Origin: Auricularia sp. M13
Lineage: Eukaryota > Basidiomycota > Agaricomycetes > Auriculariales > Auriculariaceae
Direction: 5' to 3'
DNA length: 64,000 nt
Assembly: GCA_037042915.1 (NCBI GenBank)
Contig: CM073193.1
Span: forward strand, 6,696,001-6,760,000
Part shown: piece after piece, positions 7,650-28,729 of the stretch
Position numbering within the stretch: the stretch's first letter is position 1
How the letters are laid out: each line of letters starts with the position of its first letter
Made by a program: the position numbers and the translations under genes
The notes under the pieces: generated by a model
What the model saw: the letters and a program-made list of their open reading frames with translations, nothing else
Database searches by the model: none
Told to the model about the DNA's origin: nothing

Positions 7650-9364
7650 ATGGAACGGTCTCAGACGCGCCCGCGCTTCAGCGCCACCAGCTGTCAGGCC
7701 ACGGTTCATTTCTGCTTCATTCATAAGCACCAAGTTGATCGAGGCGGGCGATTGCTACGCCTCTTTCTCTTCCCTCACCTGCATTCAGGCTTCCTAATGC
7801 TCGTTCCATCCTTCCCTGCCCTGGTGAACGGCACCCTCCACGCATATCGCAACAATAGCGTCCATGACGAGCAGGACGAGAATCGCGAGCTATCGGCCGG
7901 ACTGTTTGCCGACAAAGATTCGTCATTGTTCCACGCGCCAGCGTATACCAGCACGTCCCGCTCGCGAACTCCTAGGTACGCTTTCTACATATCCCACAAT
8001 ATTATCTCTCATCGCTGCGCTTCAGGATTGTCGGTGCAGGCTCCCAGGCCCGCAACGCCGATATCTTCGCGCGACAATCACGACCGTCGCTAACATCTCA
8101 CCATTCTCGGTTTCATCCCCCGTCCTCTCTTTCTCACATATGTTCCATCTCGTATGTCATATCCAGGATCTCATGATTATATCCTCATAACTCAATATTC
8201 ACTGTGCAGCGATATGCAACAATCCATCAAGGCATCCAACGGCACAACATTCCACAGTCGCACTAATTCCCGTGACCATTCATCACAACTGCAAGCGCCT
8301 TGTCTCCTGGGCGCATCGTATCAGCAAGGCCCTCCTACACGGCACTCTTTTCTTTGTATCTCGGAACCTGAGTGCGTATATAGCGCGACCATGCGCGTAA
8401 CCGACCCTGATCTCTACACAGTATCCTACCCCACGATCATTTCCAATATGTGTGCGCTCAACCGCAAAGGACCCTGCGCTCATGCGTATCCATCCTTGCC
8501 GACCGAGCACGAGCTGTCCTGGTTCGCGTAAGAACGTCCTTTCGGAGCGCACCGCCCCCGCGCAGACGCCTTTCCCCGCACTCCCCGCTACCCCGCTTAT
8601 CGATATACCAAACACGATCAAGCGCTGACTCCTCATTGTCCGGGCTGCGTGAGTTACTCACATCGCCTGCGGACGGCGACATGTTACCGCTTCCGATGCC
8701 AGGTGCCTGGCTCGAGCCCAAAGATACCTCTCCGCACGTCGACCTTCATAGCACTTCCCCTCGGCCACTGTCATGGCCCTCGATCATGCCTTTGAGCCCG
8801 GATATGCCTTGCGACGTTCTCTCCGCCAGCACGCTTGACTTCCGGACGGCAGCCGACCTCGTACTCGATTACGACAGCACGGACTTGCCCTTCCTGCAGC
8901 GAGACGATGGAGATGAGGACACCGAGGACACCTTGTCTCTGCAGACGCCGTTACACGGCCAGTCCCGCCCGCCTTTCGCGCTGCACTCGACATGGTCAGA
9001 CAGCGAATCCGAGGCTGACTGCGACGATCTCGAGGGTGAAGACGCGGACGGCTTCCCAGGCATCACCTTCCCACTTCTGCCACAGGCACTCAGCAGAGCG
9101 CGGGAGCACGAGCGCGCCTCTATTTCCTCGCTCTCGCTCTTCCCAAGCCCGCCTGGCTCCCCAGCATTTACCGAGCGCTTCAGCACGGTGACGCAGGCCG
9201 ACCCGCCCTCCACCCCCAAGCGGTCGCGCCGCAGCGCCGTCCTCGATCCTTATATTCATCATACACGTCAGCCTTTTGCTGAACCGGAAAGCCCAACCGT
9301 GCGCACAGCACGCATCCGCCGAGAGACGCTCGCCCGGCTTGAGAGCCGCGTGAACCAGAGGTAG
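7650..9364 (+). CDS. uncharacterised Ser/Pro/Asp-rich protein, four exons
   Basis: Not recognised. Three canonical introns connect in phase. The first (GTACGC...TTCAG) starts near 7975, the second (GTATGT...GTGCAG) near 8154, and the third spans 8528-8565 (GTAAGA...CGCAG, only 38 bases). The last exon is a long open frame with acidic stretches (DDGDEDTEDTLSLQ; SDSESEADCDDLEGEDADG), phosphorylatable Ser-Pro sites and a basic end (STPKRSRRSAVLDPYIHH, then RTARIRRETLARLESRV), stop at 9364. ATG 7650 is the longest in-frame start; ATG 7797 is an alternative. The composition fits a regulatory or scaffold protein; no domain is visible. Confidence 0.55.
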
Positions 9365-16574: not shown

Positions 16575-17806
16575 ATGACAGCTCTCAACGACGCCAAGAC
16601 CCCCGATGAGCTGTTCGCTCTGCTCCATGCGGGAAGGTTCTTTGACCTCACCGGTCTGGTTGCTGTCGTCACTGGCGGCGCAAGTGTATGGGGCCAATGA
16701 AGCTTCGATGTGCCTTCCATAGCTGACCGGCTGCTTTGCAGGGAATCGGGCTCATGACGGCTACCACGCTGCTGGCCAACGGAGCGAAGGTGTACATCGT
16801 GGACAAGTCGAAGGACAATCTCGACCATGTGCTGGAAGTGTACAAGCAGGTCGCCGGCGACCGACTTGTCGGGTTTGAGGCAGATGTTAGCCAGAAGGTT
16901 AGTCGTTGATATCGAAAGCGTATAGGTTATTGACACTGTTTCGCCAGAGCGAGGCAAGTCGTATTGCAGAACAGATCGCTACCAGCACTCCATACGTCAA
17001 CGTTCTGTTCAATAACGCCGGCATCGTGAGTCCATCTCCTGTGTGTCACTCATGCCCCTCGAGATTCAACTTTTGTCAAACAGACCGGTCGGGCTATCCG
17101 TCTACTCCCAGAAGGGTCAAGTGATCCGGATCCGAAGGAATTCGTTGATATCCTGAACGACTACGAGGCCCAGGATTTCCAAGATGTGTTCAATATCAAT
17201 ACCTTCGCAGCATATTTCTGGACGGCCGCATTCATCCCACTCCTTTGCGCCTCGAAGGAGAGCGCAGGCAGTCGCTTCGTCCCCCAAGTCATCAACACTT
17301 GCTCGCTGAACTCTTGGTCAAAGATACGTATAGTCTCTGGTTGTGGCAGCGTCGATATTCATTGGCATTCTACGATCTTGCCACCAGCTGGGAAAGGCCG
17401 GCATACCAACTCTCCAAGGGCGCCATCCATCATCTCACCAAGATTTTAGCACACAAGCTCATCCCACTCAAGATTCGCGTCAACGGATTCGCTCCAGGGC
17501 TCTTCCTGACTGGAATGTGCGCAGACACGGACATGTAGCGAGCTTGCTATGCTGATTCGAGGGCAAATTAGGACTACACTGCCAGGTAGCCGTTCGCCGC
17601 TCGGGTTCTCCGTCACTGCGCCGCAAGTCTGGGACGGGGAAACCACAGCTAAGATAGGAGGACGTTTCAAGGCGCCGATGCAGCAGCTGGGGCGCTTCGA
17701 GGACCTTAGCGGGCTCGTGCTGATGCTCGTCACGAACAAGTCCATCGACGGTGAAGTCATCCTCATCGATGGTGGCTCCCTGCTTCGCCACAGCGCCTTC
17801 CACTGA
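16575..17806 (+). CDS. short-chain dehydrogenase/reductase (SDR)
   Basis: NAD(P)-dependent oxidoreductase with a Rossmann fold. ATG 16575. Intron 16686-16741 splits the cofactor motif, giving VVTGGASGIGL. Further GT-AG introns follow DVSQK and NNAGI, and another (GTGCGC...ATTAG) completes GLFLTGM before TTLPGSRS. Catalytic Tyr and Lys sit in YQLSKGAIHHLTKILAHKL (YxxxK), and INTCS supplies the usual Ser region. The C-terminus has GRFEDLSGLVLMLVTNKS and IDGEVILIDGG. The link between SLNSWSK (about 17325) and SWERPAYQLSK (about 17390) needs one more intron or has an indel; no clean GT-AG pair fits. The substrate is unknown; no obvious cluster partner is next to it. Confidence 0.85.
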
Positions 17807-17899: not shown

Positions 17900-17914
17900 G
17901 AAACTGTCTTGCTA
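17900..17914. repeat. left copy of LINE target-site duplication
   Basis: GAAACTGTCTTGCTA, identical to the 15 bases that directly follow the poly(A) tail at 28715. By chance such a match within 11 kb is expected about once in 100,000 trials. Confidence 0.75.
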
Positions 17915-18516
17915 GATTACATCGGCCTAGCGCGGCTGTCAAGGCACAGACGCACAGTTATGAATAACCTCTCCGGCGGAGTAAGAATACACATACCACG
18001 CCTCCGGACACTCCTCGACCGCCACACACTCGATTCCACGATAAGCGACGTCAGATACAGCATGTACCTGTCAGCGACAACTAAAACCGACAGCAGCCGA
18101 AATTACACTCCCAGAACTCTGAATAACCCATTGCCAGAGCAAAGTAGAGACTGTGAGCACGACATCGAAACTAGCCTGGCACCATGACGACACGTCTGCG
18201 GGCGCCAACACAAGTCGTTGGCCCTCGAATGAGAGCCGCATGATACCAGGATAGTCACAATATAGCGCTCAGGGTCGCCGGCGAACTCCAAGTTACAAAG
18301 TTCGCGGAGGTCGAATCGAAGCCCGGTCCCCTCTCAAATCAATATCAATCAGGCATCGCCTGACGCAGATGAGCGCCTTAGCTCCCTGCCAACACGCTAC
18401 GGTCACGGCTCATCCTCGAGGCCAAATGAATACTTAAGCCGGATCTCCAGTCGCATCCGCCTGACCAGCGCCATTGCGGCCCCCCAGTCTCGCCAGTCGT
18501 CCCACTCTACGCAGAT
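17915..18516 (+). other. proposed 5' untranslated/promoter region of the LINE
   Basis: No coding exon is supported here. A TA-rich promoter-like stretch (GAATACTTAAGCC near 18428) lies about 85 bases before the zinc-finger ORF. Confidence 0.4.
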
Positions 18517-19359
18517 ATGTCCACCACGCCTGAAAATCCCCCAGCGAAGCACGAAGATGCAGCTAGCATAGCTCACAGCCAGTACAGTTCGGCATCGCCC
18601 TCTCCCGCGGAAGTCATCTGGAAATTCCCCATCGAGATTGACTTCTCAAAATATAGGGAGTCGCTTTTCGGTATTCGCAATTCCCCTCCTTATCAACATC
18701 TTTCCTCTGACTCTATCCCAGTCAAATCTGCCAGGCAGGCCCGCGAGGGAACAAACATCAGCGTCAAAGACGAGCCGCACTCGCCAGCAGTGCCGCCGCC
18801 CGCGCTACCATCGCCGCCGACCATGCCGCCGCGCGAGGTACCACGTGCCACAGTCTCGGCCAATGCTCCCGCAGTTACGATTGGAGCGCGCGATGTACAC
18901 GTTCGCAGTGCAACCTCTCCGGCTCAAGCCCAGCGTGCGTCCGCACCTCGCTGTCGCCTCATCAGCTCACTCCACATAGCGGTGCAGGATAATGTAATTC
19001 ACATGCCAGCGCCTACGTCAGAACACGTAGTCTCCGGCCCCCGCGCTTTCTCCGAACCTATTCCCCCGAAAAAAAAGCAAACAGTGCGCCACGCGCCGTA
19101 CATTCCCAGTGCATCAGCAGCCGCACGTGTCTCGATGCGCACATCTTCATCGTCTCCGCGCGCTGGAGCCAAGAAATGCTGGGGTGGATGCAATCGGGTG
19201 TTCACCCGAAACGAAGGTCGCGACAAACATTGGAACAGCCATCCGGAATGTGCACAAAAGCATGCGCTAATCGTCCGGGGCACTGAGGACGAAGACGATT
19301 TCACCAGAGCCACCACCAGGCGTGCCTACAAGGGCTCCCAGAAAAAGTCTCCCCTGTAG
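18517..19359 (+). CDS. C2H2 zinc-finger protein inside the LINE
   Basis: Intronless 280-residue ORF from ATG 18517. The N-terminal two thirds is Ser/Pro/Ala-rich and disordered-looking (PPPALPSPPTMPPREVPRA), with a basic patch PIPPKKKQTVRHA near residue 185-200 that could act as a nuclear signal. Near residue 220 lies one zinc finger: CWGGCNRVFTRNEGRDKHWN, i.e. C-x3-C-x12-H, followed by the second His and a Cys. A charged tail with DEDDF and basic residues closes it. It may be a host-like transcription factor gene or a third protein of the element; its position between the proposed target duplications favours the second. Function is not known. Confidence 0.6.
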   Translation: MSTTPENPPAKHEDAASIAHSQYSSASPSPAEVIWKFPIEIDFSKYRESLFGIRNSPPYQHLSSDSIPVKSARQAREGTNISVKDEPHSPAVPPPALPSPPTMPPREVPRATVSANAPAVTIGARDVHVRSATSPAQAQRASAPRCRLISSLHIAVQDNVIHMPAPTSEHVVSGPRAFSEPIPPKKKQTVRHAPYIPSASAAARVSMRTSSSSPRAGAKKCWGGCNRVFTRNEGRDKHWNSHPECAQKHALIVRGTEDEDDFTRATTRRAYKGSQKKSPL

Positions 19360-20080
19360 CTTCGTCGTCTCTACCGGTGTAAAGTCAAGACTCTTGTGCA
19401 ATGTTTTTTGATTTTAGCTCAGCGTACGCGAAACGCCGATTGTTTAACGGCCTAAGCATCCAAGCCTTATCTACAACAGGAGATCACAGCCCCAAGTACC
19501 CTTCGAGGTGATTGCCAGGCTTTACAGCTGGGCCATGCAGTGCCACGCATGCCCAGCGCTTTATCCGGATGCGGTCCACAGGTCGCTCTGGCCCGTACCG
19601 CAACCGGGCGGAGCACAGACACAGTTTGAATCGGAGTTTCGGCGGAAGATAGCTCTTGCTCCGCTACCACGCTCACAGCCGGTGCCAGCGCCCGCCGCGA
19701 CGGCGACCGTCGTCCGGCCTCCCACGCCAATTTGCGCGGCAGCCAATGCGCATGCGTAATCACAATATCCGTTGGAGCTTAGCGCCGCAAACAAGTGCTG
19801 AAAGCCATGCCAGTACCACCGCAGCAAGATACGCGAGAGCCCCAGCGCCTACACGCACGCCCGAGTATTCAATCCATTTCATTTAGGCCCTGAATATCGA
19901 TGAGCGCCGTGTGTCAGTCACTCGAGATCATCCCCGGCGCTCAGGGTGACACTGCCAGGCAGGATGACACTGTCAGTCAGTCCTCTTGCGCTGGACGATA
20001 CCCCCTGACATACGTTCGCGCTATATTAAGAGGCCAACAACATACACGTCCCATCGCCCCCTTTGCCCACGCTGCACTCG
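19360..20080 (+). other. spacer between zinc-finger ORF and ORF1
   Basis: No coding exon supported. It ends with a TATA-like box (20022-20030). Confidence 0.45.
20022..20030 (+). promoter_or_regulatory. TATA-like box before ORF1
   Basis: TATATTAAG lies about 50 bases before ATG 20081. This spacing is normal for a fungal Pol II promoter and suggests ORF1 may have its own transcript. Confidence 0.45.
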
Positions 20081-22394
20081 ATGCCTCAAAATCCCAATTT
20101 CAACTCCTTTGCTGCGCTGGACCCAGACCGCGACGCTGCGCAGCGAGATGATGGCCAGCCGACGACGATCGACGAATCTCAGGCTGGCGCTGGCGAAGCC
20201 GACACTAGGACTCGTGAGGAGGCTGACGCCGACGAAGACGCGCCCGCCGGCGCGGGGGACGCCACTCTTGAGCCAGTAACGCGTCAGGCCTTTCACTTCA
20301 GCTCGCCGACAGCCTCCGAAATCGACCAGGCCGGCTTCATCCCCGTCGACCTCGCCATGAACGCAGAATCCGCCGAATCAGCTGCACCCTTCGACTTCGT
20401 GGTCTCCGTCGACAAACGAGGCACGATTCGCAAGTTCCCGGGGACCCCGTCGGACAAGAAGACCCACGTCGCGCGCCGCGACAAGAAAGCGGCGGAGCGC
20501 CGTCTGAACGACACGCAGGAAGAAACTGTACGTGTCCCGATAGGGCATGCACTTCGTCCTCACCTGCACGCCAGCCCAAAGCGGTCGCCGAGCCGACGCC
20601 AGCTGCCCAGCATGACACGGGTGTCGACAAAGCCCAGGACCAAGCCAACACGGGCCCTCCTAACGCGCCGCACTTTGGCACGGTACGCACTGCATCACAC
20701 TCGCCCCGGACACAAGCTCACTTTTCGCCCAGTTCACGAGCGCACGAAACGTCTTCGCATACTCACGGGCTGTGGCCGGCTCGCTGAGGTCTCGCGCGTC
20801 ATCGACGACCTCGACTGTCCGGGCATCAACCCTCATCCCGCGTATCCCGAGCCCGCCGCGCTTCCCGGAGATGAGCACGAGACTTGAGCCGCGTGACGCT
20901 TGGCCCAGTCTGCCGAACCTACGGGAACGCCCCGCGGTCTACACGACGCTCCCGCCCGACATCCTTGGCTCTGATGACGACGACGAAATTTCGCCAACGG
21001 AGTTCGTTGGACGCCGCGCGCGCGCCCGGATGGCCGAAGGAGAAGCAGGCAGCAGCCGTCACCCCGACCCTGGCTCTCCCACGCGGGCTGCCTCGCTCCG
21101 CGAACAACGCCGTCAGGAGCGGCAGCGCGCTCAACAGCGCCGCGACGACTTCGACTTATACGGAGTCGCTGAAGTCCCTCCTCCGGTCAAGCTCGAACCA
21201 GTCGCGGACGACGCGATGTCCGTCTCCGAGCACGCCGTCCCAGGCTTCGAAGTTGACGAGGACGACCTAGACCAGGACCCGGAACCGTCCGACGACGATG
21301 AAGACGGCGGTATCGCCATCTCGGACCCGCCAGCCACGGCAGAGGAGCGAAGGCGAGCAGGCTCGTACTCCGCAGCCTTCGCGCGCACGGGCGTAATGAT
21401 GGACCGCATCGGCGACATGTCGCCGCTGGACGGTCACCACCGCAACCGTGTCTGGGACCACGTCAACGCGGCCCAGAAGGTCGCACTCGACAAGACCCCC
21501 GGCCCTAAACTCATCATTAGGCCCATCGACATCCTCGGACAACGGCCCCTCCATAGCATGGACGAAGACACGGTCATGGCGTTCACGAGGAAGAACTTCC
21601 TCGAGACGATCCGCAAGTCGTACCCGGAGCTCGAGCCCCTCTTCACTCGCCTTCGAGCTGCAGTAGACGCTGCCAACCACGAGCAGGTCCAGGGCATCGT
21701 AATCGCCGTGTCACGCCTGCCACCGGAAGTTGTCGAGGCGTTCCTCACAGCACGCTGGTGGGTGATGGGCAGCCTGCTCATCGAGGTCCACCAATACGAC
21801 CAGCCGGAAGGATCAGACTTCTTGTACACGTTGCGTCAACTCAACCTGCCAGCCGACGCGATCCCGCGCCGCATCCGACCAGTCTGGCGCCGTAACTCGG
21901 AGATGCGAGCCATCGCTGCACAACACGCAGCGGACAAGAACATCTCCGTCGAAGAAGCGATGGAGCTCCTCCTCGCTTCGCTGCACGTCAAGCCGCTCAG
22001 CGTCGTGTTGCCCAAGACCCCCGGCGTTGTCGAGCAGCAGTTTAACATTTATGCAGGACATTTCTTCACCCCGGTCCTGCACCGACGCCTGCGTGATGCC
22101 GCCGCCTCCATCGTCATAGACGACCTTCTCCACGGTCGGGGCGTCGCGTGGAGCGGCTGGTACTGCACGTTCTGCCGCGCGGAATCGCACCCAGCCGGAA
22201 AATGCGAGATATGCAAGCTGGAGAGCCGTCAGCCCAAGCCAGGCGACAAGTCCAAGAAGGGTCGCCGCAAGGATGACGACGACGACTCGACTCGCGGGCC
22301 AGGCAGTGGGCGCGGACGCCGGGATGGCAGGGGTGGCGGGCGCGGCGGACGCGGAGGGCGCGGCGGCGCGCGCGGCCGCAAGCCCGGCTTCTGA
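20081..22394 (+). CDS. LINE ORF1, gag-like CCHC protein with two introns
   Basis: Nucleic-acid-binding structural protein of the element. ATG 20081. Exons 20081-20527, 20575-20682 and 20733-22394 give 738 residues. Introns are 47 and 50 bases, both GTACGY...CTCAC...CAG, and both are needed to leave a frame that otherwise ends at 20887. The N-terminal half is acidic and Ala/Pro-rich. A folded middle part (residues about 400-640) has NRVWDHVNAAQKVALDK and WWVMGSLLIEVHQYD. Residues 663-676 are CTFCRAESHPAGKC, an exact C-x2-C-x4-H-x4-C zinc knuckle. The end is a basic then Gly/Arg-rich tail (GRGRRDGRGGGRGGRGG). Similar CxxCxxxxHPxxxC proteins accompany Agaricomycete retroelements. A frameshift instead of splicing is less likely. 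Confidence 0.78.
20528..20732 (+). other. two spliceosomal introns in LINE ORF1
   Basis: Intron 1 is 20528-20574 and intron 2 is 20683-20732. Each has a GTACG donor, a CTCAC branch-like site and a CAG acceptor. They enclose a 108-base exon. Neither length is a multiple of three, so splicing both is required for the full protein. Confidence 0.7.
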
Positions 22395-23022
22395 GGGCAG
22401 CCGACAGTCGCCGCACACGCACCTTTGACCGCTCGCACCGCCAGACACGCTACCTCCAGGAGCGCCGTAGTCGTCACCCCCCTCCTTTTTTCTTCACCAG
22501 TCTCCTCTCTCGATGCCTGCGTGGTATGCCCTTGTCCTTTCTAAACACTGTTACCCCCCCCACTATTGCCGGTTTTACATGCCACACCATCTCCCCCGAA
22601 TAATCGCATATAAACGCGCACGTCACATACCATTAACCAACATTCATTCGATCCTTACCCTTTGCCCCTTCACCGCCCTTTGCTCCTCCACCGCCTGCAT
22701 CGCAAATAGATAGTGAGACGTCAATGCTCGGAATACACGTTGACGTTATGCAGCACGTACTGCGTGTGAGCCCGCCCGGCAGTGATCGCACGCTGTGAAG
22801 TACGAGAGCTGTGCACGATCTCTTCACAAAGCTAAGTGCCCTGGTGAGCCCAAATAGACTGCAAGGACAGGAAAGCTCACTAGGACAAATAAACGGCGGC
22901 CTGTTGAGGCCAAGGACGTGCCGTGCGGCGACGCTCAAGTCCTGGGTGAACCTCCGCGAGCCGGAAAGCGTGGGTCGGGGACCCCGGGACATAGCTCCAC
23001 CGTTCTAGTCGGGATATACTAG
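22395..23022 (+). other. 628-base spacer between ORF1 and ORF2
   Basis: Pyrimidine-rich first half, then a GC-rich stretch just before ORF2. No coding exon is supported. LINEs usually have a much shorter gap here, so ORF2 may be made from its own transcript or by an internal entry mechanism. Confidence 0.5.
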
Positions 23023-26000
23023 ATGTGCCAGTTGGGTGCGCTGGCCCCGCTGGCGAGAAACTCAGTGCAACCAAGAAGTCATACATCAAAATACAATCTT
23101 AGGTCGCGAAGGAAACGGTTTGGTTTCGAAACCCTCAGTGCTGGAACAGCGGACGATGATTCCGCGGCGGACGCTGTGGATGAAGGCACAGGGGTCATGG
23201 ACAGCAGTTTTTTACAGACATTCACCGATGTCAACTCCCCCATAGCTCCCGGAAAATGGGAGCTCGCTCACGGTAAGAGGGCACATGGGGACGAACGGGA
23301 GAATGGGTTCAGTGGCTCATCCCGTCAGACGCCGCCAAACCGAGCGGCCTATGAGATTAACGGGCTCAGGGGACCATATGATGGGCGGATGCTTCAACAA
23401 CGGACCGGTAACGGAGGGCCAGATGGGGACGCGAATAAAGCGACGGGCCACGTGCACAGAATGCAGACCCCGGGGCGCGTGGAGAGCGCCTATGTCGCGA
23501 CGCCTAGCTCATGGAGAGAGTCTCCAGGTGGCGAATCGAGTGAAGACTCAGGCTCTGAGGACTCTATCATCGAGAGGTCCAGGGAAGCTCATCCAGACCG
23601 AGCATTCCTCATGACCAGCCGTAAACACACGCGGGCAAGTCTGAAACTCGCCTCAGAGAATATGAGAGGACGCGGCTCGAGCTCTATCACAGGTAATAGG
23701 AAGTGGAAGCGAATAGCGGAGGATGTGAGACGACAAAAGATTGGTATCATGGCGCTGCAAGAGACGCACTTGTCCCAGGCGCACCTCGATGATATACACA
23801 AGTTCCACGAGCACATAACAGTTTTTAACTCCCCAATGCCATCAAACCCGACCGGTGCAGGGGGAGTGGCTCTCATCTTGAACAAACTGCTCACGAACCA
23901 TCTGTCGGCGAGGTTTCACGTCCTTGTCCCAGGACGAGCGATAACAGTTACGATTAACTGGCACCGAGGGGATAATATCTCCGTTATGGCGGTGTACGCC
24001 CCGACGGACAAACGGGAGAATGATCGGTTTTGGTCCACAATTAAGAACAAACTCAGGAGAGCGAAGGGGGCGATCCCCAAACCGGACGTGGTGATGGGTG
24101 ACTTTAACATGGTCGAAGACCCATTAGATAGGTACCCCGCGCGGTTGTCCCCTATCGATCACCCACAGTCTTTCCAAGAGCTCAAAAGATTCTTGTCCCT
24201 GTCGGACGGATGGCGGGAGACATTCCCAGACTGCGTGGATTGGACATGGCGCAACAGTGCCAGAACGGCGATGTCGCGCATTGACCGGATATATCTAACG
24301 AGGGCCCTCACGCAGTCGAGCCGGCAATGGGACATCACGATGTCAGATCTCACAGTAGATGATCACAGTAGGGTATCGGTCGAAGTGGTCAACTTGGAGA
24401 TGCCGGAAATCGGCCCCGGGAGATGGGCGATGCAACATAGATTGACGAAGGACAAGGCCCTGCTGAAGGACGCAGACAGGTTAGGAAAATGCGCTCTACA
24501 AGAGGTCGCGGCCATCAATGAGCGCGGCAGAACGACGTCGGAAAATGCCCAGACCATATGGAAATCCTTCAAGGACCAGATCACAGTGCTGGCGAAGCGG
24601 CGGTCCAGAGAGCTCAACTGCGCCCGAAATGCGCGAGTAGCGGCGAAAGTAGCTGAGAGGAAAGCCGCGATCACGACTTTAAAAGCTGCGACATCGCCAG
24701 AGAGCGAGGCAGAAGTACGCCGACGCCTGCGGGTCGTGGAGCGCGAGATACACGGACTGCAAGCGGAAGCCCACGACGATATCTTCAGGAACAGGAGAGA
24801 CCGTGTCTGGCTAGAAGCTGAGACGATGCACAAGTCATGGTTCCGTTGGGCCAAGGATAACAAGCCGCGAGAGACCTTTGCGGCAATACGCAGACCAGGG
24901 ACCGAGCCAGCCGTGTATGCGACAGATTCACGTACGATGGCGGAAATTGCGAAAGAATACCATGATGGGGTCCAGTCCGTCGATCTGGAAGTAGACGACG
25001 TGCAACGAGCAGCGGCCACTGCTACGGTACTTGATCATGTTGAGCGGCAAGCTGATGCCGCAGCTAAAACGGAGCTGGCATGCCCCATATCAAGAGCGAA
25101 TGTAATCGAGTCCCTGGCTGCGAGCAAAGCAGGTAGCGCAGCAGGGGTAGATGGCTTCATATACGAGTTCTGGAAAGAACTTGTCAGACTGCACGCAGAG
25201 TCCGAGCGCACGGCAACGCCGTGGTTCGACGTTGCCCAGCTGCTGACTGAGGTGTTCACGGACATCGAGCGCCACGGTATTTCAGAAGGAACAGACTTTT
25301 CGACGGGCTGGTTGTGCCCTTTGTACAAGAAAGGGGATCGAAGCGACATCGCTAACTACCGGCCCATAACGCTCCTGAACACGGATTACAAAATATATAC
25401 GAAGGCTCTGGCTCTCAAGTTAGCCCGAGCAGCTCCGCGGCTGATACACGAATCTCAGGCGGGCTTTGTACGCGGTCGCAGCATCACGGACCAAACGAAG
25501 ATCGCATCTCTGATCCTCGATTATGCAGAAGCCTATGAAGAAAACGGCATAATCGTGGCTCTCGATCAGGAAAAGGCCTACGATAGGATTCGCCATGACT
25601 ATCTAGGCCGTGTACTCCGCCAGTTCGCCCTGCCGGAGAGGTTTGTCAGGACGGTCGAAAGCCTCTACAAGGGCGCGCAAACGACGGTGCTGATCAACGG
25701 CTGTATGAGCTCAAAATTCACAGTATCGCGAGGGGTACGGCAAGGGGATCCCTTATCATGCTTACTTTTCAATTTGGCGATCGAGCCCTTACCCGCCATG
25801 CTGCGACGGTCAAACCTGCGAGGATACACCATCCCAGGCCTTACACAGAAGCTGATAGCGACTTTATACGCCGACGATACCACGGTGTATCTGGCAGATG
25901 ACGATTCGTTCGACGAGCTCACAGACATCCTCGAGACGTGGTGTCTAGCCTCAGGTGCCAAGTTCAATACAAAGAAGACTGAGATCATACCTCTTGGTAC

Positions 26001-28509
26001 GGAGGCGCACAGACTGCGCCTAATCGAGTCGCGGAGCATGCGCGTGGATGGCCCAACACTTCCAGAAGGCGTCCGCATAGCGCGCGATGGCGAACCCACG
26101 AGGATTCTCGGCACGTGGCCCGGAAATAAAGTACAGGAAGCGAATGCGTGGTCGACCATAGTGGATAGAATAACTGAGTCGTTGCAGAGATGGGAAAAAC
26201 ATAAGCCATCTCTGAACGGCAGAGGTATCATAGCACAGACTGTGATAGGAGGTCTCACGCAATACTTGACGTCAGCGCAGGGTATGCCGACCAGAGTTGA
26301 AAAACTGCTCGACAAAATAACCCTAGATTTCGTCTGGGGCGAGGGAAAGACCCGCCCGGTGAATATGGAGACGCTGCGACGCGATAAGGACGACGGCGGA
26401 CTGAAACTGTTCCACGCCCGCGAGCGGAACGATGCGCAATACATCACCTGGATTGGGCGGTTCTTAGCCCCAGTGGGCGAGCGACCAATCTGGGCGTATA
26501 TAGCAGACTCGGTCTTCCGGGCTGCGACCGTGGCAAAAGACCGTGCCCGAATTCCAGAGGCGCAACGAGTTAACCCGCTCTATCAGGATTGGAAGCCGAA
26601 CATGCGCAGGCTGCCCTTTATGCTGCGGCAAATGATGAGAGTGGCCCGCAAATACGATCTGATGCTCGATGCCCCTACCATCCCGCAACGGCTGCGGGAA
26701 CAGATTCTAGTCTGGTCACATCCTGCTCTTACTACCATGAGGATGACAAAGGCCTCCAGGGCCAGCGTACGTTGTTTAAAGGTGCACCACGCCGTAGAAT
26801 CGGTCGAGGACCTGGAAGAAATAGCTGAACAGGACGAAGATGGCCACGCCGACTGCGACCTCTGCGTGTGCGCAAATTGCGAGCAGGATCGTCAGGAAGG
26901 CTGCAGGCACCCGTTCCGATGCAGACAGGTGGCCGAGGACGTGTTAAGTTCGATCGGCGGAAAGTGGAATACGGCGACGTCGGAAGCGCCGCGTAGCACA
27001 GAGCTCTGGGACACGTTCCTAAGCGACCGCCAACGAGCCCTCCAACAGGGCGAAGTGGTTGTGTTTCAACCAGATGTTCCGCGACTGAACAGGCTAGAGG
27101 ACCTCTCGCGGATCTGCGTCAGCTCGTTCGCAGTGGGAGCGGCAAAACCACATGAAATTATGCGAAGGGAAGCCGGCACCGCCGCCCCCCACCCGATGCA
27201 GGCAGAGCCCGTACAGGTTATTGTGTGCGCTGGTATGAGCAACGACAGCTCCGCACTAGCGAGGGGTGGGTTCACGATCCACTTCCCGGACGGGGAACTA
27301 GAGGACCAAGATCAAGCGTGCGCGGGAACGGGCCAGACATACCTTCGAAGTTTGGCCCTGGCGGTGACCAAGACAGTCGAGCTGGTACCGAAGAATGCGC
27401 CACTGCACATGATAGTAACCTCAAAGACTATCATCGAGTGCCTTACGACCAGCCTCGAACGGCACGAAGCTGCAGGCTGGCTGGATGTTCCAGGCGCGGC
27501 GTCGGAACTTCGCGTCGCAGTGGCAGCTCTGCGCACACGGGTAGCCGAGACGACTTTCTACCGTGTGGATAAGGCAAGACGGAAGTCGTGGCCGGAGGTG
27601 AAGCAAGCACAGGATCGCGCGACCTTATTTGCGAAGTACGGCGAGAGCAGGGAAGTCGCAACGGCAGATTACGTAGATTTCGACAGGCCAGGGCTCAGCG
27701 TCATGGGAATCACGCAACGAGAGGCGCTCCGCGCGATCAGACTGTCCAGAGAGTCGCGCGAGACAGCGAGGCGCCAGACGGTTAGGAACCTGGCACGGGT
27801 CAGGTCCGACATCTCCGCAATCGGAGAGTTTCAGCCATCCGATCGGCAGATCTGGGCTGGCATCCGTAGCAAGGACCTGTCGCGGTCAGTACGCAACTTC
27901 CTCTGGAAGTGTCTACACGGTGCGCATAAAATTGGCGTTTATTTTGAAAAGATGCCGGAACCATGGCGGAGCTATGCGCGCTGCCCCACGTGTCACGTGA
28001 CTGAGTCGATGGAGCACGTGCTCCTAGAATGCCCCGACTCACGCCAGGAGGATATCTGGAAGCTAGTACGTGTATTTCTTCTGCACAAACGGATAGACAT
28101 AGACATATCATTGGGTGTGATATTAGGGTGCGCGAATGTCAGGCTCCCAGGCCTCAAGAGCGGGCGCGACCTAGCCCGCGAGCGCTCCCTTAGAATAGTA
28201 GTGGCTGAATCGGCCTTCCTGGCGTGGAAAATACGCTGTGAAAAGCGACTGGGTCACCCCGATGCCCCGGACTGGCGTCTGGACACGGCGACACTCACGG
28301 CGCGCTGGAAAGAAATGCTGAAGCAATGCGTGCTCCGGGACTACAGAATCGCGAAGAGGGACAGGAAACGTCCCATTATGCGCTGGCTCGCATGGGCCAC
28401 GTGGCGAGACCTTTTGGGCCCCAAGTTGTGGGACGTGCACACAGTGACTGGGAGACTCGGAGTTTTAGTGGGTACCGGACCCCCGCACGCCGCTGTCGGA
28501 ATAGGATGA
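23023..28509 (+). CDS. LINE ORF2: endonuclease-reverse transcriptase
   Basis: Enzyme for target-primed reverse transcription; 1828 residues in one open frame from ATG 23023. Residues about 205-450 are an APE-type endonuclease: IMALQETHLS, MAVYAPT, VVMGDFNM, RIDRIYL, VDDHSR. Residues about 760-1020 are the reverse transcriptase: NYRPITLLN, GFVRGRSITDQ, ALDQEKAYDRI, GVRQGDPLS, and the catalytic YADD at 949-952 (25867-25878). A Cys-rich module CDLCVCANCEQDRQEGCRH starts near residue 1278. Residues about 1397-1530 resemble RNase H but lack most catalytic acids. A zf-RVT module (CPTCHVTESMEHVLLEC) begins near residue 1654. The N-terminal 200 residues before the endonuclease are low complexity. Total length is larger than typical Tad-type ORF2. 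Confidence 0.95.
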   Translation: MCQLGALAPLARNSVQPRSHTSKYNLRSRRKRFGFETLSAGTADDDSAADAVDEGTGVMDSSFLQTFTDVNSPIAPGKWELAHGKRAHGDERENGFSGSSRQTPPNRAAYEINGLRGPYDGRMLQQRTGNGGPDGDANKATGHVHRMQTPGRVESAYVATPSSWRESPGGESSEDSGSEDSIIERSREAHPDRAFLMTSRKHTRASLKLASENMRGRGSSSITGNRKWKRIAEDVRRQKIGIMALQETHLSQAHLDDIHKFHEHITVFNSPMPSNPTGAGGVALILNKLLTNHLSARFHVLVPGRAITVTINWHRGDNISVMAVYAPTDKRENDRFWSTIKNKLRRAKGAIPKPDVVMGDFNMVEDPLDRYPARLSPIDHPQSFQELKRFLSLSDGWRETFPDCVDWTWRNSARTAMSRIDRIYLTRALTQSSRQWDITMSDLTVDDHSRVSVEVVNLEMPEIGPGRWAMQHRLTKDKALLKDADRLGKCALQEVAAINERGRTTSENAQTIWKSFKDQITVLAKRRSRELNCARNARVAAKVAERKAAITTLKAATSPESEAEVRRRLRVVEREIHGLQAEAHDDIFRNRRDRVWLEAETMHKSWFRWAKDNKPRETFAAIRRPGTEPAVYATDSRTMAEIAKEYHDGVQSVDLEVDDVQRAAATATVLDHVERQADAAAKTELACPISRANVIESLAASKAGSAAGVDGFIYEFWKELVRLHAESERTATPWFDVAQLLTEVFTDIERHGISEGTDFSTGWLCPLYKKGDRSDIANYRPITLLNTDYKIYTKALALKLARAAPRLIHESQAGFVRGRSITDQTKIASLILDYAEAYEENGIIVALDQEKAYDRIRHDYLGRVLRQFALPERFVRTVESLYKGAQTTVLINGCMSSKFTVSRGVRQGDPLSCLLFNLAIEPLPAMLRRSNLRGYTIPGLTQKLIATLYADDTTVYLADDDSFDELTDILETWCLASGAKFNTKKTEIIPLGTEAHRLRLIESRSMRVDGPTLPEGVRIARDGEPTRILGTWPGNKVQEANAWSTIVDRITESLQRWEKHKPSLNGRGIIAQTVIGGLTQYLTSAQGMPTRVEKLLDKITLDFVWGEGKTRPVNMETLRRDKDDGGLKLFHARERNDAQYITWIGRFLAPVGERPIWAYIADSVFRAATVAKDRARIPEAQRVNPLYQDWKPNMRRLPFMLRQMMRVARKYDLMLDAPTIPQRLREQILVWSHPALTTMRMTKASRASVRCLKVHHAVESVEDLEEIAEQDEDGHADCDLCVCANCEQDRQEGCRHPFRCRQVAEDVLSSIGGKWNTATSEAPRSTELWDTFLSDRQRALQQGEVVVFQPDVPRLNRLEDLSRICVSSFAVGAAKPHEIMRREAGTAAPHPMQAEPVQVIVCAGMSNDSSALARGGFTIHFPDGELEDQDQACAGTGQTYLRSLALAVTKTVELVPKNAPLHMIVTSKTIIECLTTSLERHEAAGWLDVPGAASELRVAVAALRTRVAETTFYRVDKARRKSWPEVKQAQDRATLFAKYGESREVATADYVDFDRPGLSVMGITQREALRAIRLSRESRETARRQTVRNLARVRSDISAIGEFQPSDRQIWAGIRSKDLSRSVRNFLWKCLHGAHKIGVYFEKMPEPWRSYARCPTCHVTESMEHVLLECPDSRQEDIWKLVRVFLLHKRIDIDISLGVILGCANVRLPGLKSGRDLARERSLRIVVAESAFLAWKIRCEKRLGHPDAPDWRLDTATLTARWKEMLKQCVLRDYRIAKRDRKRPIMRWLAWATWRDLLGPKLWDVHTVTGRLGVLVGTGPPHAAVGIG

Positions 28510-28714
28510 ACGGCAAGGGTCCAAGCCCCACACTGCCTTATTGGCGTGTTAAGAGCTATTTCTCCGAGGGGAGGTGTCTTCGTTTTCTCGTGCGGGCGGC
28601 CGTGACGGCTGCCCCCCACCAGCTTGCGTGGTAACACGCATAAGAGGAATCCCCGAATCACTATGTGATTGCGGGCTCCTTGACGCTCAAAAAAAAAAAA
28701 AAAAAAAAAAAAAA
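28510..28714 (+). other. LINE 3' untranslated region and poly(A) tail
   Basis: Short 3' UTR ending in 26 consecutive A residues (28689-28714), the insertion end produced by target-primed reverse transcription. Confidence 0.85.
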
Positions 28715-28729
28715 GAAACTGTCTTGCTA
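28715..28729. repeat. right copy of LINE target-site duplication
   Basis: GAAACTGTCTTGCTA, exact copy of 17900-17914, starting at the first base after the poly(A) run. Confidence 0.75.

Follow-up and report, generated by a model that had tools for sequence, protein, structure and literature searches.

The window (the whole 64,000-nucleotide stretch of DNA from Auricularia sp. M13 that was analysed here) carries a single LINE insertion at positions 17900-28729, with 10,800 bp between its target-site duplications. The insertion holds an ORF for a protein with a C2HC finger; a gag gene (20081-22394, forward strand), which codes for 738 amino acids once two predicted introns are removed; and ORF2. 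The features are as follows.

17900..17914, forward strand: left copy of the 15-bp target-site duplication (exact match)
17915..18516, forward strand: truncated 5' leader, which aligns, clearly from ~17975, with sequence past the stop of an extra first ORF (ORF0) in two relatives; 5' RNA fold not found
18517..19359, forward strand: ORF encoding a 280-aa protein that has a single C2HC finger (C-x3-C-x12-H-x6-C, residues 221-245), from the ORF and copy comparison
20081..20527, forward strand: gag exon 1 (copy comparison)
20528..20574, forward strand: predicted gag intron 1, 47 nt, GT-AG, with a CTCAC branch-like motif, at the same position in all five copies of the clade
20575..20682, forward strand: gag exon 2 (copy comparison)
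20683..20732, forward strand: predicted gag intron 2, 50 nt, found in two of five copies and precisely absent in three
20733..22394, forward strand: gag exon 3, with a CCHC knuckle and an RGG-rich tail (from sequence)
23023..28509, forward strand: ORF2, 1828 aa, with an APE-type endonuclease (~224-437) and a reverse transcriptase (RT; ~772-989) by Pfam and PDB match
28510..28688, forward strand: 3' untranslated region, the final part of which, before the poly(A), is conserved among copies (copy comparison)
28689..28714, forward strand: poly(A) tail of 26 A's (from sequence)
28715..28729, forward strand: right copy of the target-site duplication (exact match)

On the forward strand of the 64 kb, GAAACTGTCTTGCTA occurs exactly twice, at the two borders, and its second occurrence lies directly 3' of the 26 A's. 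When the prefix of the 3' flank was compared with the 20 kb upstream, the longest match was 15 bases; the maximum in a random control of 2000 window positions was 13, and four positions reached 12. The borders and the exact 15-bp duplication that a sequence-only reading had proposed are thus borne out. A search of the assembly for the window's own empty allele gave no match with up to three mismatches allowed. Just upstream of the insertion, an open frame at 17500-17806 by eye resembles the last part of a short-chain dehydrogenase gene and stops ~94 bp before the left duplication.

To describe related copies, we used the RT part of ORF2 as query against the assembly (52 Mb, 14 contigs). Of the 126 matches, the best 76 by score (at least 61% identity, some partial) make up the analysed set; the next six were short pieces with 59-81% identity, and the remainder had at most 42% identity, mostly near 30%. 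By our own count, 44 of the 76 matches are in open frames of 1700 codons or more. A gag match is found on the same strand in the 10 kb upstream of 45 of the 76, with none on the opposite strand and one downstream. With the window finger protein as sole query, 32 of the 76 have a same-strand finger match within 10 kb upstream; pooling these matches with those of the ORF0 finger raises the count to 45, again with none on the opposite strand and one downstream. These pooled matches accompany 44 of the 57 best RT matches (at least 66% identity) and one of the remaining 19 (more distant or partial matches), the cut at 57 having been chosen after the list was seen; 29 of the 76 RT matches have no finger match within 12 kb. 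The finger ORF is, accordingly, a marker of this LINE family.

Target duplications were found in all eight copies whose two ends were compared. Outside the window, they measure 19 bp in the C5 copy, 15 bp in C1:348k (three of them A), 16 bp in C4 (seven A), 15 bp in C1:5.36M (in an AT-rich tail), 13 bp in C8, 17 bp in C3, and 17 bp in C1:3433k; those of C4, C1:5.36M, and C3 were found only once the upstream range was extended. In the copies examined, gag lies within the same duplication as ORF2, and so does the finger ORF, except in the truncated C8 copy. Among the eight compared copies, there was no ORF2 that starts near 22.4-23.0 kb with a duplication of its own.

These data bear on the idea that the interval is a chimera, in which a shorter LINE made up of ORF2 and perhaps gag came to lie beside older finger-gene sequence, with the two 15-mers matching by chance. 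Consistent with it, 24 of 74 merged finger loci lack an RT in the 12 kb downstream of them. However, the finger ORF, gag, and ORF2 are collinear in many copies, including seven of the eight whose ends were compared, and the leader is similar to that of the window in four other copies. Moreover, the 12.6-kb sibling C1:3433k inserted into a repeat of which two 99%-identical paralogs keep the undisturbed site with a single AAGCTCTTTTCTTCATG; because these paralogous empty sites exist, both borders of this sibling are proven. We therefore regard a chimera as exceedingly improbable, and entry in one event, as the earlier reading had it, holds up. The invaded repeat has several copies: L018-L021 (C7:119k, C4:2587k, C9:903k, and C1:3431k) are four places with a repeat of at least 2.9 kb that is 98.7-99.8% identical and encodes a 191-aa protein with an ORF0-like finger; near three of the places there is no gag or RT match, and one copy of the repeat is the target of the C1:3433k LINE.

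With a fixed 2690 bp added past the RT match, we estimate a full length of 11.4-14.1 kb for 15 of 17 copies and of 15.3 and 16.7 kb for the remaining two; the 16.7-kb estimate is that of C1:5.36M, an interrupted copy that really measures ~21 kb end to end. This sibling (C1:5363553-5384613, ~21 kb between its duplications) has an interruption of ~4.3 kb inside gag and another within ORF2. Recent activity of the family is suggested by identities of 99.1% between C8 and C3 over 3.5 kb and of 99.4-99.6% among L070-L072 (of which L071 is the C1:3433k copy) over the initial 1.56 kb, beginning exactly at the element start; the upstream flanks of L070-L072 differ (the pairs L070-L071 and L070-L072 were compared).

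ORF2 places the element among the APE-type LINEs. Pfam recognised Exo_endo_phos (1e-10) and RVT_1 (2.4e-36), that is, an APE endonuclease and an RT in one ORF, and the motifs GVRQGDPLS and YADD are present; the 3' poly(A), the target duplications of variable length, and the 5' truncation (window and C8) are also those of an APE-type LINE. Pfam found no GIY-YIG endonuclease, the mark of Penelope, in ORF2. The best PDB match of ORF2 is LINE-1 ORF2p (8sxt; residues 227-1128, E 7.6e-44); the other matches listed are R2-type and other RTs with none named Tad, so that L1 and Tad are not separable by this search. In the Tad clade, an RNase H domain follows the RT. Pfam found no RNase H in ORF2 or in five C-terminal pieces from five copies (E up to 10), including the degenerate RNase H that we had suspected by eye in the C-terminus, where a degenerate fold is possible. 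A conserved region of the ORF2 C-terminus, at 27190-27714, is by eye RNase H-like minus the acidic residues, and Pfam gives a weak zf-RVT match there in some copies. ORF2 resembles the LINE-1 type, and "Tad-type", the group with which the earlier reading compared the element, appears doubtful. Among fungal LINEs, its features presumably fit the L1 side (Deceiver or Inkcap) better than Tad; our guess is Deceiver or a neighbour. Tad ORF1 of type I is described, in the part of the source consulted, as having an RRM upstream of the CCHC (PMC4120745); the gag here has the CCHC and, across 18 sequences, many of them partial, no Pfam domain.

An RNA three-way junction that shows covariation forms the 5' end of full-length relatives of the window copy. 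This kind of sequence and RNA fold stands at the start of six of the eight copies with compared ends, the two closest relatives (C5 and C1:5.36M) included. In single-sequence folding, the junction is the minimum-energy fold in C4 (z −2.2), C5 (z −2.6), and C3 (z −3.2), and it lies within a longer outer stem in C1:348k (z −2.9); C1:5.36M alone folds otherwise (z −1.9). MAFFT with RNAalifold gave no structure for the first four 5' ends. A covariance model built from C4, C5, C1:348k, and C3 (the last in place of C1:5.36M), with a structure that we chose from the single-sequence folds, recognised the 5' end of C1:5.36M, which had been left out of it (E 0.011). In the whole genome, a loose pattern of the fold had 16 matches compared with one for a reversed control, and each of the 16 is followed, 7.9-11.8 kb downstream, by an RT on its own strand. 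Across 17 matches (14 distinct), in an alignment that was fitted to the model and is biased towards it, 88.6% of cells are paired and 32 cells carry a double change, compared with a shuffle mean of 11.4; one base pair is G-C in five, U-A in five, and A-U in three. The outermost stem, between the first bases and the bases after CCAAA, is paired in 54 of 56 inner cells, which none of 2000 shuffles equalled. Other measures on the 17 matches are unexceptional: the number of pairs with a double change was reached by 33 of 500 shuffles and that of further pair types by 196 of 500. From an independent MAFFT alignment of 15 sequences, RNAalifold recovered the outer and the first inner helix with four double-change pairs. 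Rfam had no match (E up to 1) in five loci, four of them with 5' ends, or in the window interval.

The window copy lacks this start. The covariance model gave two chance-level matches in the window, of 10.5 bits at 19042 (E 0.55) and 10.3 bits at 8601 (E 0.67). Instead, the leader aligns with the interior of C5 and C1:5.36M, just past the ORF0 stop of both, and positions in these relatives make the window copy short by ~1.7 kb. The ORF0 product has ~210 aa and a C2HC finger. The assembly yielded no near-identical sibling of the window copy, so truncation was judged against relatives: the closest ORF2 is 73% identical (26 of 208 candidates scored) and the closest RT 90%. The C8 copy shows the same kind of loss relative to the longer C3 copy. 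We had at one point taken both C8 and C3 to start at GGATCACAG without a finger ORF, and rejected this: in C3 a finger lies just upstream, and because the true start of C3 and its duplication lie farther upstream, the C8 start is a truncation point. The stretch that starts at GGATCACAG, folded as a supposed fifth 5' end, had a z-score of 0.00, and the covariance model had no match in L057, which contains the truncated C8 start.

Alternatively, the window copy could be full length, with 17915 as the start of its own, divergent 5' end. Its exact duplication, its open ORFs, and the distance to the nearest ORF2 sibling fit this possibility, but the fold at the start of most compared copies, including the two closest, the match of its leader to the interior of these two, and the parallel loss in C8 make it very unlikely. 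Judged by alignment to its relatives, the window copy is 5'-truncated. It is probably dead although the ORFs that it retains are open, and the suggestion that it is perhaps still mobile is not supported. Likewise, the view that all parts are intact applies to the finger ORF, gag, and ORF2 but not to the 5' end and the first ORF of the two closest full-length relatives; and the proposed larger, three-protein LINE describes the 10.8-kb insertion with its finger ORF, spliced gag, and ORF2 well, whereas complete relatives measure ~11.4-14.1 kb and the nearest two have four ORFs.

The reading frame of gag has intron-like interruptions at conserved positions. The first has GT-AG ends and a CTNAY motif in all five copies of the clade and lengths of 47, 46, 48, 52, and 53 nt, which shift the frame by 2, 1, 0, 1, and 2, respectively; because this shift varies between copies, a fixed programmed frameshift is excluded. 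Its interiors are 31-51% identical compared with 57-74% for the adjoining exon. The second interruption is present in the window and in C1:5.36M and absent in C5, C1:348k, and C4, where the flanks are joined exactly in frame; because a tree of the C-terminal part of ORF2 does not resolve the order of the window, C5, and C1:5.36M, gain and loss of this intron are indistinguishable. Outside this clade, the reading frames and splice signals of C8:2852k, C1:4875k (whose second intron has a GT start in the alignment and no standard acceptor in a scan), and C4:846k (with several possible acceptors) point to one or two introns in gag, and gag reads through in one frame in the stretches examined of C8:1448k, C1:200k, C7:3483k, and C6:337k; these intron counts leave out the gag loci L063, L066, and L052. 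In ORF0, an interruption of 46 nt with GT-AG ends is present in the C5 copy (L054) and absent in the C1:5.36M copy (L056/L011), and this putative intron is a second precise presence/absence difference.

The interruptions of gag might instead reflect mutations that shift or stop the frame, or programmed frameshifting. In the window, the unspliced frames overlap, and in C1:5.36M the interruption, at 48 nt, leaves the frame unchanged, as such an explanation would allow. Against this stand the splice signals at the same place in five of five copies, the variation of length modulo 3, the poorly conserved interior, the exact, frame-keeping absence of intron 2 in three of five, and the comparable interruptions that three copies outside the clade show. 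We consider this alternative highly improbable and infer from the frames and splice signals that gag is spliced.

The ORFs are under purifying selection, with every dN/dS value well below 1: 0.26 (window-C5) and 0.18 (C1:348k-C4) for the finger ORF, 0.25 for ORF0, and 0.12, 0.18, and 0.38 for gag exon 3. These values are rough, as synonymous divergence is 0.78-2.1, near saturation in some pairs. Relatives in databases are few. For gag, protein searches (8000 candidates scored each) returned two matches in all, the second one weak; the only clear relative found is AURDEDRAFT_119638 (P0001; a hypothetical protein of Auricularia subglabra), with 32% identity over 74%, which is annotated as a single protein, unlike the split gag here. 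Pfam found no domain in the 18 gag sequences at E up to 0.1. For the finger protein, the protein search found no relatives, and Pfam zf-C2H2 matched only at E 0.19, below the Pfam cut-off. The finger proteins may, we suggest, bind nucleic acid and contribute to transposition or to its control.

Altogether, we think it very likely that the interval arose by a single target-primed reverse transcription event of a LINE whose complete form is ~12-13 kb and of which the window holds a 5'-truncated copy. According to this model, the full-length RNA would start with the clamped three-way-junction fold; encode, in the closest relatives, the ORF0 C2HC finger, a second C2HC finger, gag with its CCHC knuckle from a spliced message, and the APE-RT ORF2; and end with the conserved 3' segment and poly(A). 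ORF2 would carry out the insertion by target-primed reverse transcription, and an early stop, ~1.7 kb before the 5' end and near the ORF0 stop, would have given rise to the window copy. Gag would be an RNA-binding protein translated from spliced RNA. The usual template may be unspliced RNA, and spliced RNA may be copied now and then, leaving a precise absence of introns. We tentatively speculate, although we consider it rather unlikely, that the host spliceosome separates two RNA pools, with spliced RNA giving gag and unspliced RNA with the 5' three-way junction being the genome that is copied, somewhat as in retroviruses, and that the C2HC-finger proteins control the switch.

LINEs are usually described as compact elements with one or two ORFs that use their own mRNA as template, and with such a template introns are therefore expected to vanish at each jump. 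Introns that are fixed across insertions, yet precisely missing in some copies, would preserve a natural trace of which RNA had served as template. The 5' fold identifies copies that are truly full length and offers a cis element that can be tested, and the finger ORFs indicate that LINEs are able to carry accessory genes. Such elements have possibly been overlooked because of the scarcity of protein-search matches for gag and their absence for the finger protein.

The element here is like human L1 in the alignment of ORF2, the GVRQGDPLS and YADD motifs, the lack of an RNase H found by Pfam, the poly(A) tail, and the target duplications. Human L1 has a length of 6 kb; the LINE described here differs in its 12-13 kb, its finger ORFs, its intron-bearing gag, and its structured 5' end. 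TART and TAHRE of Drosophila exceed 10 kb, and length alone is not new for LINEs. In searches of the open-access literature, we found no LINE with such introns or extra ORFs and no relatives of the element. For Laccaria bicolor, the non-LTR groups Tad, Deceiver, and L1 have been reported; the part of that account considered here mentions, for LINEs, neither an additional finger ORF nor introns nor a structured 5' RNA, unlike the element in Auricularia (PMC3411680). Penelope-like elements keep introns through retrotransposition, for which, in the sections of the source used here, an antisense template is proposed and an unspliced sense transcript allowed, and some of them are without an endonuclease altogether (PMC3846280). 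They share intron retention with the element studied here but are not LINEs, whereas this element is an APE LINE, in which one would not expect introns to survive independent insertions. Overall, we see here a genuine, large LINE that carries accessory genes.
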